A program made the position numbers and the translations under genes. Shown in pieces: positions 4,581 to 12,188 of a DNA stretch of 37,639 nt (position 1 is its first letter; each line of letters starts with the position of its first letter). Source of the DNA: a virus. Where the stretch lies: IMG/VR virus record IMGVR_UViG_3300012002_000098, positions 1 through 37,639 of that record; one strand, given 5' to 3'. The notes beneath the pieces were generated by a model. That model searched no databases, had not been told where the DNA came from, and saw only the letters and a program-made list of their open reading frames with translations.

Positions 4581-5219
4581 ATGAGCAAGCAGTGCGGTGC
4601 AAAAACCAAAGCGGGAACCCCATGCAAGAACGCGCCGGTTAAAGGTCGTGGCCGCTGTCGACTGCACGGTGGGGCCACCCCACGCGGGGCGGCTAGCCCG
4701 CACACCAAGCACGGGAAATATTCAAAGTACCTACCCACCCGCCTGCAATCCAAGTACGAAGAATCCGAAAGCGACGGCGATCTGATCGCGTTGCGGAGTG
4801 AGGTTGCACTGGTGGACGCCCGCGTGATCGACCTCGTGCAGCGGGTAGACACGGGCGAAGCGGGTGAGGCGTGGCGCAAGCTGGGGCGGGCTTACGATGA
4901 CATGGTACGGGCAACCAAACTTAAGGACACAACCGGGATGCGGGCCGCGCTTGAGCAGATCGGTGAGCTAATCAGCCGGGGCAACGATGACTATGCCGCG
5001 TGGGACGAAATCACCCGCTTGCTGGAGCAACGGCGCAAGCTGGTTGAGAGTGAGCGAAAGCGCCTGGTTGATATGGAACAGATGATCACGACCGAGCGGG
5101 CGATGATGTTGGTGGGGGCTGTAGCGGGAGTAATTAAGGCGCATGTTTCCGATCCAAAACAACTTGCTGCCATCAGCCAAGACATCGGGGCTATCCTTAA
5201 CCGATCGGATGCTGAGTGA
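4581..5219 (+). CDS. terS: Terminase small subunit (HGG zinc-motif type)
   Basis: 212 residues directly before the large terminase. The N-terminus has a compact Cys/His motif (CGAKTKAGTPC, then CRLHGG; Cys5, Cys15, Cys26, His29) seen in many small-terminase-like proteins. A long helical region at 60-170 could support oligomerisation. Small terminase binds the packaging site and delivers DNA to the TerL motor. AGGAG lies ten bases before ATG 4581; that ribosome site is inside a four-codon mini-frame (ATG 4562 to TAA 4576), which may be chance. The 3' end overlaps terL by 11 bp if terL starts at 5209. Confidence 0.75.
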   Translation: MSKQCGAKTKAGTPCKNAPVKGRGRCRLHGGATPRGAASPHTKHGKYSKYLPTRLQSKYEESESDGDLIALRSEVALVDARVIDLVQRVDTGEAGEAWRKLGRAYDDMVRATKLKDTTGMRAALEQIGELISRGNDDYAAWDEITRLLEQRRKLVESERKRLVDMEQMITTERAMMLVGAVAGVIKAHVSDPKQLAAISQDIGAILNRSDAE

Positions 5220-6684
5220 GTTAGCCACTCAGCTTGACCCCGAACAGACGGCCGCTAATCAGCTATGGCAGCCTGACCCAAGCAACGAGCCGCAACAGCT
5301 TGCTTATAAGCTGGCGATGGACGTTGACGAGATGGGGTTCGGTGGGCAGGCCGGCGGCGGCAAGACGGACTTGGCGCTAGGGCTGGCCGGCACGCTGTTC
5401 TATCGCACGCTGTTAATCCGGCGGACGTTTCCGCAACTGAAAGGCATCATCGAGCGCGGTAACGAGATTTACCCGGCGTCGTATGTGGCCGGCACAAAAA
5501 GTTATTGGCGATTCGGCAAGCGGCTGATCGAACTCGGTCACCTGCAATACGAAAAGAACTGGAAGAACTACCAAGGGCAGCCGCGTGAGTTGTTCGCAGT
5601 TGACGAGGCGGCGGAGTTCCCGGAAGCGCCGTTGCGTAAGATCAGCGCGTGGAACCGGAGCGCAGCCGGACGGCACACACTCACGCTGTATTTGTTCAAC
5701 CCGCCCACCGAGCCGGAGGGCGAGTGGGTGATCCGCTACTTTGCGCCATGGATTGATCCAGATCATCCGAACCCGGCTAAGTCTGGGGAGATTCGCTACT
5801 TTGCCACCATCAACGATGAGCAGGTAGAAGTAGACTCGCCGGAGCCGTTCGATCACCCCGACGAGGGGCTGGTGCGACCGAGTAAGCGCACGTTCATTGC
5901 GGCGTCTCGGCACGACAACAGCTATCTAGGCGAGGAGTACGAGCGCCGGCTGCAAAGTACACCGGAGCCACTGAAGACGATGCTCATGACGGGCGACATG
6001 ACCGTCGGGCAGAAGGAAAACCCGTGGCAAGTCATCCCGACGGCGTGGGTACTGCAAGCCCAGGAGCGATGGAAAGCGCAGCAGCAGCCCGACGTGGCGC
6101 TGCGTGCGGCCGGCGTTGACGTGGCGCGTGGTGGTGACGATAACACGGCTATTGCCCCACTGCGGGGCGTGTGGTTTGACGAGCTGACGGTGCGGCCGGG
6201 CATTGAGACACCAAACGGTAAGAGCGTGGCGGACTTGACGTATGAGGTGCTTGGTGAGGCGGACGTGGACGTGTTCGTGGACGTGATCGGCGTCGGCGCG
6301 TCGGCATATGATGCGCTGCGGGAAAACTATCACTACAACACGCGAGCGGTCAACAACTCCGGTAGCGCCAAGCACGCCAAGGACAAAAGCGGCAAGTACG
6401 GCTTTGCCAATGTGCGGAGCTGGTCATACTGGACGCTACGGGAGGCACTAAGCCCGGAATCGGGCGAAGAAATCGCACTCCCGCCAGGGCGTGATATCCG
6501 ACTGGAGCTATGCGCCCCACATTACCGGGTACGAAATGGAAGGTACGTGGTTGAGCCAAAGGAAGATATTGTGAAGCGGTTGGGCTACTCGCCGGACAAA
6601 GCCGACGCCATTGTGATGGCGTGGCACGGAGTGAATAACAGCCGCCGAATTACATTTGACGAGGATAGTATTCAAACGTTATGA
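5209..6684 (+). CDS. terL: Terminase large subunit (ATPase and nuclease)
   Basis: 491 residues counted from ATG 5209. Walker A GQAGGGKT ends at Thr53. Walker B LFAVDEAAEF carries Asp132 and Glu133. The C-terminal RNase H-like nuclease has acidic residues in GVDVARGGDD (Asp304), VFVDVIGVG (Asp358) and DKADAIVMAW near the end. It packages DNA into the prohead and cuts the concatemer. An in-frame ATG at 5143 (513 residues) would overlap terS by 77 bp; 5209 is preferred because the conserved region begins there, although its ribosome site is weak. Stop and portal start overlap (ATGA). Confidence 0.93.
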   Translation: MLSELATQLDPEQTAANQLWQPDPSNEPQQLAYKLAMDVDEMGFGGQAGGGKTDLALGLAGTLFYRTLLIRRTFPQLKGIIERGNEIYPASYVAGTKSYWRFGKRLIELGHLQYEKNWKNYQGQPRELFAVDEAAEFPEAPLRKISAWNRSAAGRHTLTLYLFNPPTEPEGEWVIRYFAPWIDPDHPNPAKSGEIRYFATINDEQVEVDSPEPFDHPDEGLVRPSKRTFIAASRHDNSYLGEEYERRLQSTPEPLKTMLMTGDMTVGQKENPWQVIPTAWVLQAQERWKAQQQPDVALRAAGVDVARGGDDNTAIAPLRGVWFDELTVRPGIETPNGKSVADLTYEVLGEADVDVFVDVIGVGASAYDALRENYHYNTRAVNNSGSAKHAKDKSGKYGFANVRSWSYWTLREALSPESGEEIALPPGRDIRLELCAPHYRVRNGRYVVEPKEDIVKRLGYSPDKADAIVMAWHGVNNSRRITFDEDSIQTL

Positions 6685-9224
6685 GCATACTCAACCGTGT
6701 ACAACGCGCATGGCAGGCGCTGACAACTGATTCATCGCCCAAGCGTGGGTACTGGGGTGGCTATAACGATGCACACGGCTGGGCCGATGCTGGCATCAAC
6801 CGCAAAAACAATTTTGTTGTAGGGGCGATGGGTAGCGCCCTTGCCTACCAAGCCGTGCCCGATTTACGGGCGGCGGTGGATGTCATCGCGGAGAATCTGG
6901 CCACTGTGCCGTTGGTGGTGCGGGACGAAGACGGGAATGAGGTGGCCCGGAGTGATCATAACCCGGACGACAGCGCGGCGCTCAAGATGCTGATGGAAGC
7001 GCACGCGGGCGAAGTGCCGCTGATGCAAGCGTGGGGTTATAGTCAACTGCTATACGGGTTTACGGTTGTCGAAAAGGTGATGAGCGAGGGTGACGGCCGT
7101 AAACGCATTACTGGCTTGGAGTGGTTGAACCCGCTGATGCTGAGCTTGCAGGACCCGCACGGATACATTGACGAGATTCTTTATTCCGGGTACGGGCGCT
7201 TTGCGCGTTATGAGCGCGATGAGGTAATTTACACGCGGGTATTCGGGCCGATGAGCGAAGAGCGCGGCTACGCACCAGTGTGGTCGGTGCTGGCGAAGGC
7301 GAACCTAGCACTTGACTTCGACCGGTTTGTGCTGGCGTTTATGGATAACGGTGGTGTGCCGGGCGTGATTGCCACGCCGAAAAACGGGCATGATATTTCA
7401 ACGGACGACATTAAGCGCCTCACGGACTTGTGGCGGCGCGAGTTTAAAGGCGTCAATAACTTTTTTAAGCCGTACATCACGACGCACCCGATGGACTACG
7501 AAGTTATCGATATGCAGAACTTCGATAAGGTTCTGCCGATGGAAGACCGGATCATCGCTGCCATTCAGCGCATGTTGCGCGTGCCACCTTCAATGCTGGG
7601 CGATTCCAAGGATAGCCCGTATCAATTTTCGTCCGATAAGAAAAACTCATTCATGCAGACGGCTGTCAAGCCATATGCCGGGCAAATTGAAGGCGCGTTG
7701 AATAAATATTTTATGCCGTTGGCTGCGCCCTGGGGGCACACGGCACACTTTGACTTTAGTGTGTTTGAGCCGACAACAGAGATGGACGAGCGACGACGGG
7801 CCATTGCCGAGCGTGATTGGCTCACGGCAGGGATTACGCTTGGCGAGTACCGCGAGCGACGCGGAGAGACGCCTTACGGTGGCGCATTGGATGACTTGGT
7901 ATTTGTACCGGGATTTGATATGCCGGTCCCAAAGTCCGAGGTGGGCGAGTTATGGCGCTATCGATTGCCGATGCTTGGTAAGCAAAATAGCGGGGGATCA
8001 TTGCCGGAGCTGTCGGCAACCGGTCCGCCGAATACCGCGTCCGGCTTACCTAGCCTCAGGGGCGCGCCCGCGCAGACAACGTTTAGCCCGGTGACCTACA
8101 ACGGGGTGACGGTGCAAGCCTCGCCGGTTCAGCCGTCCAGTCGGGACGACAAGAAGTTTATGCGCTGGGTTCGATACGACGAGCAAGAACGGCTTGTGCA
8201 TTGGGGTCAGCCGGGCGAGGATATGGAGCGGGATAACGACGAGGCGCGCGAGAACTTCATGGCGCGTCACAACTGCGATGAAAAACGTGACCCGTTTCGC
8301 GCGGGCTTTTGGGCGTGCTGGGCATGGCAACCGTCGGCAGAGGTGCGGACTACCGGATGCGGACACGATCACGCGCGCGACGTTGGCATGAACGTGGTTG
8401 ATGCGATTGAGGTGCAGCCGCTACCCGATAACGGCGATATGCACGAGGAAATCGACAAGTGGTGTAACTTTAAGCTGAAGCGCTACAAGCAGAAAAATCC
8501 GCGGGCGTTCAATCCGGAAGCAACGCGGGGCGATCTGGGAGACTGGATACAGGCGCAGCTTGAGCAAGCGAAGAATACGCCGGAAGCAATCCAAGGCGTG
8601 TTCGAGGCGGCGCACGAGCGGGTGCGGAATGCCGAGAAGGCAATCCAGGCGACACGGTTGCTGTATGAAGGTGAGGTTGCTGATTTGATTGAGGCGGCGC
8701 GCAGCGGCGATATTACCCGTCGGCAGTTTTCAGCGCGGTTCCGTAGCCGAAATAAGACCTTTGGTCGGCGCGCTTATGAGGACGGGATTACAGATGGTGG
8801 AGTGGACGTTGCAGAGATGACGAGCGACGACTTTGAGACGATGAATAACCTGATTGCCGAGCAATCACAGTATGTGTCGCGCCTAGGTGCTGTGCTGTAC
8901 GACGAGGGCATTAGCGACGCGGAGGCCGCACGGCGACCGGCGTTATGGTTTAAGAAGTCCATTATGCCGTTGTATGAGGCGGGGTTACTGAGCGCTGCTG
9001 GCGATCAAATGGTTGAGTGGGTGATGAATGGGGCGGCGGAGAACTGCGACAGTTGCCAGGCGCTGAACGGTCAGCGACATCGCCGAAGCACATTTCACAG
9101 TAACGGCTTTGTGCCCGGAGATAACGGCCATCGATCGCTGATTTGCGGCATGGGCTGCAAGTGTCGGTTTGTTCCCGTTCAAGGTAAGGCGCGCGGGCGA
9201 TTACGCGGTATTCCGACGAGGTAA
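6681..9224 (+). CDS. Portal protein fused to a MuF-like head protein
   Basis: 847 residues. Residues ~50-420 are an HK97-family portal (LRAAVDVIAENLATVPLVV near the start; PPSMLGDSKDSPYQFSSDKK in the crown region). A low-complexity linker is followed at ~520-555 by a module with the motif RHNCDEKRDPFRAGFWAC, seen in several phage head proteins. The C-terminal third is helical and ends in a Cys-rich knot: C789-DS-C792 and C822, C826, C828 in LICGMGCKC, the usual end of MuF/SPP1-gp7-type minor head proteins. Portal and MuF are normally separate adjacent genes; here they are one frame. No strong internal ribosome site is visible before the MuF part. Confidence 0.88.
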   Translation: MSILNRVQRAWQALTTDSSPKRGYWGGYNDAHGWADAGINRKNNFVVGAMGSALAYQAVPDLRAAVDVIAENLATVPLVVRDEDGNEVARSDHNPDDSAALKMLMEAHAGEVPLMQAWGYSQLLYGFTVVEKVMSEGDGRKRITGLEWLNPLMLSLQDPHGYIDEILYSGYGRFARYERDEVIYTRVFGPMSEERGYAPVWSVLAKANLALDFDRFVLAFMDNGGVPGVIATPKNGHDISTDDIKRLTDLWRREFKGVNNFFKPYITTHPMDYEVIDMQNFDKVLPMEDRIIAAIQRMLRVPPSMLGDSKDSPYQFSSDKKNSFMQTAVKPYAGQIEGALNKYFMPLAAPWGHTAHFDFSVFEPTTEMDERRRAIAERDWLTAGITLGEYRERRGETPYGGALDDLVFVPGFDMPVPKSEVGELWRYRLPMLGKQNSGGSLPELSATGPPNTASGLPSLRGAPAQTTFSPVTYNGVTVQASPVQPSSRDDKKFMRWVRYDEQERLVHWGQPGEDMERDNDEARENFMARHNCDEKRDPFRAGFWACWAWQPSAEVRTTGCGHDHARDVGMNVVDAIEVQPLPDNGDMHEEIDKWCNFKLKRYKQKNPRAFNPEATRGDLGDWIQAQLEQAKNTPEAIQGVFEAAHERVRNAEKAIQATRLLYEGEVADLIEAARSGDITRRQFSARFRSRNKTFGRRAYEDGITDGGVDVAEMTSDDFETMNNLIAEQSQYVSRLGAVLYDEGISDAEAARRPALWFKKSIMPLYEAGLLSAAGDQMVEWVMNGAAENCDSCQALNGQRHRRSTFHSNGFVPGDNGHRSLICGMGCKCRFVPVQGKARGRLRGIPTR

Positions 9225-9251
9225 ACGAGCGGCATAAATCAACTGTATGTG

Positions 9252-9276
9252 ACCGCCTGCGGGCGGTTTTTGTTTT
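9252..9276 (+). terminator. Intrinsic terminator between portal and capsid genes
   Basis: ACCGCC (9252-9257), UGCG tetraloop, GGCGGT (9262-9267), then TTTTGTTTT. This is a textbook stem and U-tract, ending just before the GGGAGGA ribosome site of the capsid polyprotein at 9287. No promoter is visible between it and the gene. Confidence 0.75.
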
Positions 9277-9286
9277 GGGAGGATAA

Positions 9287-12151
9287 ATGAAAACGAAAAT
9301 ACGAAAGCCAACCCGAAAAGTTGTTGGTAATGCCGCCTATGTCTATATCGACTTGGCAAACACTGACGCGATCACTGCGGTACAGCAACGGGTTATGGAC
9401 GCGATGGAAAACGTGGGCGGGATTGAGTGGCAACCGCCGGCGACGTTTCATATCACGCTGACTTATGTGAAGGACATCAGCGACGACGCTCTGGCGGATA
9501 TCGAGCCGCCGGACTTCTCAACGTTGGATATTCGGGCCGGCAGCTTGAGTCTGTTTAACAATCCTGGATCGCGCGCGCTGGTGCTGGCGGTTGACCACAC
9601 ACCGGAACTGGACGCGCTACAACGGGCGGTTTATCAATCCTTTGAGGGGTTCGAGCGCAGTGACTTTAGTAAACCGGAGGCGTACCAGCCGCATATTACG
9701 CTGGCTTATATGGACTCCAGCGGGGTGGACGTTCCATCGGTTGAGTTCGAGCCACTAAGCATAACAGCGGGCACGGTACAGTACGCCCGCGGGGAGTACG
9801 AGCCGGTTATGACGGTAACGGCGAGCGACCCGACGCCGGAGCGTAGCCTGCGTGAAAAGCTACGACTGGCAGTCGGCTGGCAACGTGCGTCGTCTCCCCC
9901 GGTGCGGTTTCTGTCCGACGGCCGCGTGCAGGGCTATCTTGTGCGCTTCACTGACCCGGATGAGCGCGACTTGTACGGGGAGTACTTCAACGAGGAGACG
10001 GACTTCCAGTTTGAGGGGTTCCCGGTAAAAGGCGCGCCGGTGCTGTATCAGCACGGGTTAGACGAGGTCGCAGAGACGGCGGTGCTGGGCAACGTGAAAA
10101 CGGTTGAGGTTCGTGAAAACCCTGACGAGGACGGCAACCGAGGTGTCTGGATCGAGGCACAACTGGACATGATGAACGATTACGTCCAGATGATACGCGA
10201 CGTACACAAGGCAGCGATGAAGAAGTTCGGTCGCGGGCTGGGCTTTAGCTCTGGCGCGCTACCGTCCACGGTGCGTGTGGACGATGAGACGGGGCACATT
10301 CTGCGCTGGGGTATTGTGGAGGGAAGTTTGACGCTGACCCCCGCTGACCCCGGCAACCAGGTCACCACAATGCGAAGCTTGGCGACCTTGTATGACGACC
10401 TGCTTAGAGAGCGGAACGCTAGAGAAGCGGGAGAGCAAGATCCCAAGCAAGCATCAATCGACAAACAATCAGCAAGGAAGGCAAAGATGGACAAGCTACA
10501 GGAAATGGTGGATGCGTTCGTCGCCAATCTCATCGACATGATGCGCGAGGACATGAACGATATGTCCGACGATGATGCTGAACGCATGGACGGCGAGGAT
10601 GACGAGCCGCTCCGCATGGACGAGGAAGATGAGGAAGCGATGCAGCAGGCTGCCGAGCGGCGAGCCGTGGCATTGCTGAAGAAAGCCAAGGCGGTGATGG
10701 ATGCCGAGGGCGACGCTGAGAAAGTTGAACAGGCGCAGCGCGTACTCGAAAAGAAGACCGCCGAGATCGCGCGCGTGGCAACGGATGCGTATTACGAGCA
10801 GCGCCGTCGCCGACAAATGCGACAGGGTATGACGAGTGCGGCGAAAGCGCGCAGGGGCACGGCGAAGAAGTGGCAGGTCGGCGGGGCGAGCGAGCAGGCA
10901 GCACGGGAGAATCAGCGGGGCAATGGTATCGAGGTATACGGCAAGTGGCACAACGCCACCGCTGAAGACATGAGCTACTACGCCATGGTCAAGAGCTTCA
11001 AGCAGCGCCAGAATGGCGGCGGGCGGTGGACGCCTGACCAGAAGTTCATGCGCGAGCTGTCTGACAAGGTCGTAAGCGGCTACCAAAAGCGCAAGCTGGA
11101 CGTGCCCGACACCACGATCCGCTCCGCACATGCAATTAAGGCGGATGAGCTGGACTACTCGACGCAGGTCGGGTTCGGTGATGAGTGGGTTCCGGAGCTA
11201 TGGTCGGATCAGGTATGGCGTCGGGCGCGGCTAGAGAACCGCATTCTGCCGCTGTTCCGTTCGCTCGAAATGCCCTCGGATCCGTACAAGTTGCCAGTCG
11301 AAGGCAGTGATCCCAGCGTGTACCACGTTCCGGAGACGCAGGACGAATCCGAGTTAACGCTATCCGGCAGCGGTAACCCGATCCCGGACAGCAAGCTCGG
11401 CACAAACAACGTCACCATCAGTGCGAGCAAACTGGGATTGCGGATGGGTATGTCGTTGGAACTGGTCGAGGATGCGATTATCGATGTGGTGGCCATGGCG
11501 CGCGAACAGGCCCAGCGCGCCATCATGGACGCCATCGACAACGTGTTGCTAAACGGTGACACCGAAACGGACGCAACCGGCAACATCAATAGCGACGACA
11601 GCGCCCCGGCGGCCGGGTCTAAGTATCTCGCGTTTGACGGCATTCTGAAGAGCGCGCTTGTGGACGACGCCAGTCGGTCGGTGGATGGTGGCGGCACAGC
11701 GATCACACTCTCCAAGATTCGTAATATGCGCTTTGCAATGCCCACGCAGTACGCCCAACGTCCGGCTGACCTGGCGTACATTGTCGGCGGTGAGGTATTC
11801 GCATCTCTGCTCGATCTAGATGCGTTCCTGACGATGGACAAGGTCGGGGATCAGGCGACTATCCTCAGCGGCATGATCGGCACGATTGACGGCACGCCGG
11901 TTATTACGAGCGCCGAGTTCGGGCTTGCAGAGGCGGACGGGAAGCAATCCGCAACGCCGGCCAATAACACGCTGGGGCGCATGGCGACGGTGTTCCGTCC
12001 GAACTGGTACGTGGGGTATCGCCGCCGGGTTACGCCACATATCGATTACCTGTCTTACTACGACAGCTATCAGATGACCGTGACGGTGCGTCTCGGTTTT
12101 GTCCCGCAGAATGATGACAGCGCATCGGTGCTGTACAACCTGCTGGTCTAA
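9287..12151 (+). CDS. 2H phosphoesterase - prohead protease - scaffold - major capsid polyprotein
   Basis: 954 residues in four parts. (1) Residues ~13-178 are a 2H phosphoesterase (LigT/2'-5' RNA ligase fold) with both catalytic motifs, FHITLTY (His55, Thr57) and PHITLAY (His136, Thr138). (2) Residues ~200-380 are an HK97-type prohead protease, with His256 in LYQHGLDE, Ser322 in GLGFSSG and EGSLTLTPADPG at 346-356. (3) Residues ~401-510 are a charged helical scaffold (delta-domain-like). (4) Residues ~514-954 are an HK97-fold major capsid protein. The protease should cut scaffold from capsid during maturation. ATG 9287 follows GGGAGGATAA. Protease-capsid fusions are known; the extra N-terminal 2H enzyme is the unusual part. 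An internal start at 10487 is described separately. Confidence 0.9.
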   Translation: MKTKIRKPTRKVVGNAAYVYIDLANTDAITAVQQRVMDAMENVGGIEWQPPATFHITLTYVKDISDDALADIEPPDFSTLDIRAGSLSLFNNPGSRALVLAVDHTPELDALQRAVYQSFEGFERSDFSKPEAYQPHITLAYMDSSGVDVPSVEFEPLSITAGTVQYARGEYEPVMTVTASDPTPERSLREKLRLAVGWQRASSPPVRFLSDGRVQGYLVRFTDPDERDLYGEYFNEETDFQFEGFPVKGAPVLYQHGLDEVAETAVLGNVKTVEVRENPDEDGNRGVWIEAQLDMMNDYVQMIRDVHKAAMKKFGRGLGFSSGALPSTVRVDDETGHILRWGIVEGSLTLTPADPGNQVTTMRSLATLYDDLLRERNAREAGEQDPKQASIDKQSARKAKMDKLQEMVDAFVANLIDMMREDMNDMSDDDAERMDGEDDEPLRMDEEDEEAMQQAAERRAVALLKKAKAVMDAEGDAEKVEQAQRVLEKKTAEIARVATDAYYEQRRRRQMRQGMTSAAKARRGTAKKWQVGGASEQAARENQRGNGIEVYGKWHNATAEDMSYYAMVKSFKQRQNGGGRWTPDQKFMRELSDKVVSGYQKRKLDVPDTTIRSAHAIKADELDYSTQVGFGDEWVPELWSDQVWRRARLENRILPLFRSLEMPSDPYKLPVEGSDPSVYHVPETQDESELTLSGSGNPIPDSKLGTNNVTISASKLGLRMGMSLELVEDAIIDVVAMAREQAQRAIMDAIDNVLLNGDTETDATGNINSDDSAPAAGSKYLAFDGILKSALVDDASRSVDGGGTAITLSKIRNMRFAMPTQYAQRPADLAYIVGGEVFASLLDLDAFLTMDKVGDQATILSGMIGTIDGTPVITSAEFGLAEADGKQSATPANNTLGRMATVFRPNWYVGYRRRVTPHIDYLSYYDSYQMTVTVRLGFVPQNDDSASVLYNLLV
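10475..10489 (+). promoter_or_regulatory. Internal ribosome site and start giving scaffold-capsid protein
   Basis: AGGAAGG (10475-10481), five bases, then an in-frame ATG (10487-10489, residue Met401). The spacing and strength match the best starts in this window. The start falls exactly between the protease domain and the scaffold helix (MDKLQEMVDAF). Initiation here would make a 554-residue scaffold-capsid protein (10487-12151) without the 2H and protease parts. This would explain how a capsid, needed in hundreds of copies, is encoded in one frame with enzymes needed in few. Confidence 0.65.
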
Positions 12152-12158
12152 ATCTCGT

Positions 12159-12188
12159 TTAGGGAGGGGCGCCCCCTCCCTAACTTTT
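12159..12188 (+). terminator. Intrinsic terminator after the capsid gene
   Basis: TTAGGGAGGGG (12159-12169) pairs perfectly over 11 bp with CCCCTCCCTAA (12173-12183) around a 3-base loop, followed by CTTTTGTT. It lies eight bases after the capsid stop and before the ribosome site of the next gene. Confidence 0.75.

Follow-up and report, generated by a model that had tools for sequence, protein, structure and literature searches.

A 2H phosphoesterase domain joined to a phage prohead protease-capsid polyprotein, a candidate virion cargo

Here, I describe a viral gene in which a 2H phosphoesterase domain, a prohead protease, a scaffold-like region and an HK97-fold capsid domain share a single reading frame. 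The fusion of 2H domains to maturation proteases most likely arose repeatedly, and the 2H enzyme is probably packaged in the virion. The gene belongs to the virus record IMGVR_UViG_3300012002_000098, positions 1 to 37,639 (37.6 kb), hereafter the window, that is the whole stretch of DNA analysed.

Architecture of the polyprotein gene

The polyprotein is a single open ATG frame of 954 aa on the plus strand (9287..12151), preceded by the Shine-Dalgarno (SD) sequence GGGAGGA (9277..9283, -10.2 kcal/mol) and placed within the late structural cluster, downstream of a terminase gene (5143-6684) and of a portal-MuF fusion (6681..9224), both on the same strand; the latter has no 2H domain, its linker being the 2H site in relatives. 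From the N-terminus, the chain comprises the 2H domain (residues 15-178, 9329..9820; profiles and predicted fold) with its two H-x-T motifs (His55-Thr57, 9449..9457; His136-Thr138, 9692..9700), a linker (residues 181-212, 9827..9922; low pLDDT at 181-200), a putative S78-type prohead protease (residues 202-367, 9890..10387), an acidic scaffold-like region (residues 401-549, 10487..10933; aligned, and assigned by position) and the HK97-fold major capsid domain (residues 550-954, 10934..12148; profile and alignment). A sequence-only reading of this DNA had placed all four parts in one frame and named both H-x-T pairs; coordinates, frame and architecture were verified, and the pairs, found at 55-57 and 136-138, are conserved in relatives. 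Two plus-strand terminator-like hairpins, each a consensus match only, lie in the gap between portal gene and polyprotein frame (9251..9268) and 3' of the latter (12159..12183); by bracketing the gene, they may set it apart as its own transcription or processing unit.

Two other features of the window are recorded. The portal-MuF linker (8118-8420, residues ~480-580) holds a small Cys/Trp-rich domain, RHNCDEKRDPFRAGFWACWAW, which matches phrog_7595 (E 2.4e-4), a family without assigned function. On the minus strand, a C-5 cytosine DNA methylase (PF00145, 30374-31531) lies near a Dam-type adenine methylase (PF05869, 33420-33923).

The capsid domain scores 40.1 bits against PF05065 (cut-off 24.2). 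The window protease does not reach Pfam S78 (PF04586), which is reached by the homologues in loci L002 (24.5 bits) and L003 (25.1 bits; cut-off 21), respectively 40% and 38% identical to the window over the protease-capsid part. In a fold search with residues 1-400 the matches listed were all 2H, and it is from sequence that the protease is called S78-type. His256, Ser321, Ser322 and Glu345 are invariant in an alignment of 6-7 homologues, Glu345 being the likely third member of the triad. S78 proteases have an S-x-G pattern and, by analogy, Ser321 is more likely the nucleophile than Ser322. Hence, of the intact protease previously proposed, His256 and the intact triad stand, while Ser322 is possibly off by one.

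At the junction of protease and scaffold, an internal SD and ATG, AAGGAAGG (10474..10489, plus strand), form a predicted nested scaffold-capsid start. Among the 35 internal ATGs of the frame, the one at 10487 (residue 401) is preceded by the best SD, at -7.6 versus -10.2 for the full-length start. Of 69 homologues, 44 have their best-SD ATG in the linker between protease and capsid, against 19.1 expected by ATG share; 0 of 100,000 simulations reached 44, the 69 homologues being related and not independent. In phage lambda, C and Nu3 are a precedent for a nested product; likewise, the conserved internal start suggests a nested scaffold-capsid product here, the 2H-protease form being one of two products. 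This bears on the earlier claim that the 2H is enclosed in low copy. A single frame puts the 2H at 1:1 with the capsid, so that low copy is not readable from the sequence; the nested start makes an unequal ratio plausible and gives the claim part support, yet the product with the 2H is not necessarily rare, since the SD of the full-length start is the stronger one.

Class and constraint of the 2H domain

The N-terminus of the polyprotein matches PF13563 (2_5_RNA_ligase2; E=1e-13, 51.8 bits, cut-off 27) and LigT_PEase (PF02834; 40 bits, cut-off 23.3). An AlphaFold2 model of residues 1-188, with 41 related sequences as input, has a 2H fold (pLDDT 92.9), whose best match among solved folds is the Deinococcus CPDase (drCPDase; Z 17.9, 166 residues), followed by E. 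coli LigT (Z 17.4), Usb1 (~16), AKAP18 (15) and Acb1 (11-12). The comparison with LigT and Acb1 proposed earlier thus returns a 2H fold at Z 17-18 from LigT/CPDase and at Z ~12 from Acb1. The 2H family profile ranks structures alike: the CPDase (1.8e-15) comes ahead of Acb1 9q2g (8.7e-9) and of the penguinpox cGAMP phosphodiesterase (4.6e-7).

Neither LigT nor Acb1 fits in full. RNA 2',3'-cyclic phosphodiesterases of the LigT kind (5h7e, 5ldm, 4qak), which the model matches best (Z 17-18 over 160-166 residues), are cellular stand-alone enzymes having an Arg past motif 2 (HITLAR or HITLGR in 5h7e, 1iuh and 1vdx; HITLAR in 5h7e), whereas the window has HITLAY, its Tyr being kept in at least 90% of relatives. 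A plain LigT/ThpR orthologue was rejected, for the Arg three residues past the motif-2 Thr is absent and the equivalog cut-off of TIGR02258, the sole NCBIfam match, is missed (E 7e-13, 48.9 bits, cut-off 65.7). Acb1, the anti-CBASS enzyme of T4 and FBB1 (PMC9117128), shares with the window the 2H fold (Z 11-12), 21-25% identity and the H-x-T tetrad, and its structure 9q2g has the HxTLAY pattern at motif 2 (HLTLAY); yet it is a small stand-alone protein whose lid and adenine-contact region fail to align. A plain Acb1 was also rejected: the fold is less similar than to LigT, and the Pfam Acb1 profile (PF23474) scores 21.7 bits, below its cut-off of 27, its match stopping short of the region of the adenine-contact Glu141 and the lid Trp147 (residues from PMC9117128). 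Judging from profiles and model, the domain is a 2H enzyme, neither a strict LigT nor a strict Acb1; because motif 2 carries Tyr where LigT-type structures carry Arg, the fold is insufficient to name the substrate.

Across a set of 41 diverse 2H domains, whose mean column identity is 26%, the motif His and Thr residues are conserved, a result that is partly circular in that the recruitment patterns include the motif residues. The rows recruited through the capsid are unbiased, and 12 such relatives retain both motifs (L002, L003, L005, L007, L009, L014, L020-L023, L030 and L141). Between L002 and L003, dN/dS is lowest in the 2H domain (0.107) and highest in the scaffold (0.46), with the capsid at 0.134 and the protease at 0.16; in this pair, strong purifying selection acts on the 2H, which is constrained like the capsid.

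Relatives and repeated fusion

Searching 50,697 phage records by tblastn with the 2H domain gave no match, and neither did a search of viral contigs with a single 2H sequence nor PADLOC; relatives were reached by profile searches only. Scans with the polyprotein, a protease-capsid alignment and a 2H alignment collected ~140 loci, with some overlap among them, in which domain patterns were scored with home-made profiles for five domains. Three patterns emerge: (i) 2H-protease-capsid, in the window, L002, L003, L009 and L085; (ii) portal-2H-MuF with a downstream protease-capsid gene lacking the 2H, in L005, L007, L014, L018, L020-L023, L030 and L141, further portal-2H-MuF loci occurring with other head modules; and (iii) a 2H in neither head slot, in most Anaerolineae loci. 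In the 41 loci recruited by protease-capsid in which both genes are visible, the 2H sits on the protease in 4, in the portal-MuF frame in 11, in neither in 26 and in both in 0.

The complete chain of 2H, protease, scaffold and capsid recurs in the independent contigs L002, L003 and L009, so that an assembly error is rejected and the search for 2H plus S78 protease architectures, suggested by the sequence-only reading, has a positive outcome. The L009 locus (the same as L099) is also present inside a 2.7-Mb Anaerolineaceae MAG contig. Many Anaerolineae MAGs bear a short (~600 aa) protease-capsid fusion of the window's capsid lineage (L100-L141), and these loci point to Chloroflexota as the host group of the protease-capsid lineage.

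A second 2H elsewhere was found in 0 of 20 whole contigs searched, the 2H itself being seen in 19 of the 20 and the double matches being two halves of one domain. ATP-grasp RNA ligase and RtcB were likewise found in 0 of 20 contigs bearing such fusions, contigs that are possibly incomplete. An RNA-repair operon was rejected on this count; with RNA ligases missing, RNA repair is disfavoured, which leaves the hydrolysis of a defence signal or the cutting of RNA. The portal-MuF slot accepts different enzymes, since in L006 (2810-6253) it holds an ADP-ribosyltransferase (PF03496, E 2.5e-19), which is likely virion-borne. Two further contexts were observed: in L076 (4611-6290) a 2H is joined to a Zeta-toxin/AAA_33-type kinase, 3' of a MuF-like gene, and in L041 (2478-10486; also L040 and L059) a frame of >2,600 aa has a 2H at about residues 850-1000 and no further Pfam match.

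The trees do not support a single acquisition. The 2H tree places the window in a group with L033, where a ~60% identical 2H precedes an apparently different prohead protease (read by eye only) and the capsid-like gene is separate; the 2H domains from L002 and L003 fall across the deepest split. A tree in which the window, L033, L009, L002 and L003 are forced together is worse by 50 log-likelihood units (p-AU 0.0135), and forcing together all ten protease-fused 2H rows gives a p-AU of 6e-5, both values being on the optimistic side as the groups were named after inspection of the tree. The capsid tree requires two gains of the protease fusion, L002 and L003 being sister to L005, whose 2H is in the portal. 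Since the trees reject a single origin, at least two fusions most likely took place within the window's capsid lineage. Besides, the same position is filled by different 2H subfamilies. In L061 and L080 the 2H is joined to a protease of the Mu-I type, which scores over the PF10123 cut-off, in the cultured phages Edmundo (gp18) and ValentiniPuff (gp7) to another type of head maturation protease, and in Gordonia phage Lilbeanie gp16 it is C-terminal.

Among known systems, Arthrobacter phage Edmundo gp18 and Microbacterium phage ValentiniPuff gp7 resemble the window in that a 2H precedes the head maturation protease region, but differ in the protease profile and in that the capsid lies outside that frame (a separate gene in Edmundo). 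They are annotated as 'capsid maturation protease', with relatives annotated as 'RNA ligase' (phrog_14859). Some GenBank records of gp18 in the Arthrobacter phages Laroye, LiSara and Shrooms say 'aldolase class I'; profiles give a 2H ('RNA ligase') and a head maturation protease for their relative Edmundo gp18. Such fusions have thus gone unremarked in PHROGs 18402 and 14859; actinophage records list them under 'RNA ligase', 'aldolase' or 'capsid maturation protease'. BurtonThePup gp5 (PMC7302621) and Circum gp12 (PMC5513430) also join protease and capsid in one frame, with the scaffold too in the former, but a 2H domain is not reported in the accessible parts of those papers. No open paper was found on a 2H-prohead protease fusion, its repeated origin, the nested start or the alternation of the 2H between protease and portal.

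Virion cargo and its alternatives

In HK97-type phages, the prohead protease and the portal/MuF proteins are located inside the prohead or on its inner surface. As both carriers of the 2H face the interior, and phages use one or the other, cargo is the simplest reading: an active 2H phosphodiesterase would be loaded into the prohead through its fusion to the maturation protease, an explanation to which I give slightly less than even confidence. The long product (2H-protease-scaffold-capsid) would co-assemble with the shorter scaffold-capsid product of the internal start; the protease would cut the chain, the 2H, free or protease-joined, staying within the head; entering the cell along with the DNA, the 2H would then cleave a phosphodiester bond in a nucleotide or RNA, a defence second messenger being the most likely target. 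I infer enzyme activity, internal translation, enclosure, release, injection and substrate alike. The virion carriage proposed earlier is consistent with the recurring placement of the 2H in head proteins, protease or portal-MuF. Counting against it, most relatives have no 2H in either head slot (26 of 41). Moreover, prohead proteases often self-degrade and fragments can exit the head, so that the 2H might not remain there.

The general idea is already published: according to Iyer et al. 2017 (PMC5512222), 2H domains are fused to phage MuF or portal domains in polyvalent proteins, and head-fused 2H enzymes are predicted to be virion-carried and to act on RNA or to destroy defence nucleotides, T4 Alt being cited as an ADP-ribosyltransferase of a class known as injected head cargo. 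This part of the sequence-only reading is therefore not new, and the fold of the domain is nearer to LigT/CPDase than to the Acb1 named there. Like those fusions, the window has its 2H in a head protein and no RNA ligase partner, and L005, L007, L014 and others have the exact portal-2H-MuF form; the window differs in bearing the 2H on a maturation protease fused to scaffold and capsid, a form absent from section 20 of that paper.

A cargo delivered by the same route might instead act on RNA, either by processing RNA ends as a 2',3'-cyclic phosphodiesterase (e.g. products of host anticodon nucleases) or by Usb1-like trimming. The order of the nearest folds (drCPDase, LigT, then Usb1 at Z 16), the TIGR02258 match, albeit under its cut-off, and the RNase role proposed for portal/MuF-fused 2H domains in PMC5512222 speak for this possibility, which I consider doubtful, given that 0 of 20 fusion contigs offer a repair pathway to join and that the LigT-type Arg is replaced by Tyr, as in the Acb1 structure 9q2g. 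Somewhat more unlikely is that the 2H acts late in the cytoplasm, being made together with capsid proteins and removed or degraded upon head maturation. Capsid proteins are known triggers of some defences, the gene lies in a late cluster, and Gordonia phage Mutzi encodes a homologous 2H on its own, in a small gene flanked by head genes; T4 Acb1 activity is likewise late, from ~15 min (PMC9117128). For such timing, however, an unfused late gene suffices, and timing by itself hardly accounts for the repeated, independent fusion to two proteins facing the head interior. That the 2H is a structural or scaffold-like part, its catalysis being irrelevant, agrees with its junction to an assembly protein. 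Many relatives have no 2H in either slot, so that the domain is not required for assembly generally. Conservation of the motif His and Thr in the 41 domains (partly biased in recruitment) and in the 12 capsid-recruited relatives, as well as the different 2H subfamilies at the same position, render a structural role of this kind very improbable.

Returning to the cargo reading, a broader form of it, speculative and rather unlikely as a whole, is that in tailed phages the maturation protease has repeatedly been made a cargo carrier, with different N-terminal 2H enzymes locked in the head, released by the protease and injected along with the genome, and destroying defence nucleotides before these accumulate; such an anti-signalling system would be pre-loaded and not expressed late. 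The question is directly testable, for cultured Arthrobacter, Microbacterium and Gordonia phages have 2H-protease fusions. If the 2H is packaged, the phage would enter the cell pre-armed against a nucleotide signal or an RNA-cleaving defence, in contrast with T4 Acb1, which becomes active ~15 min into infection (PMC9117128), and the prohead protease would serve as a natural tag for loading internal proteins, one that releases itself.
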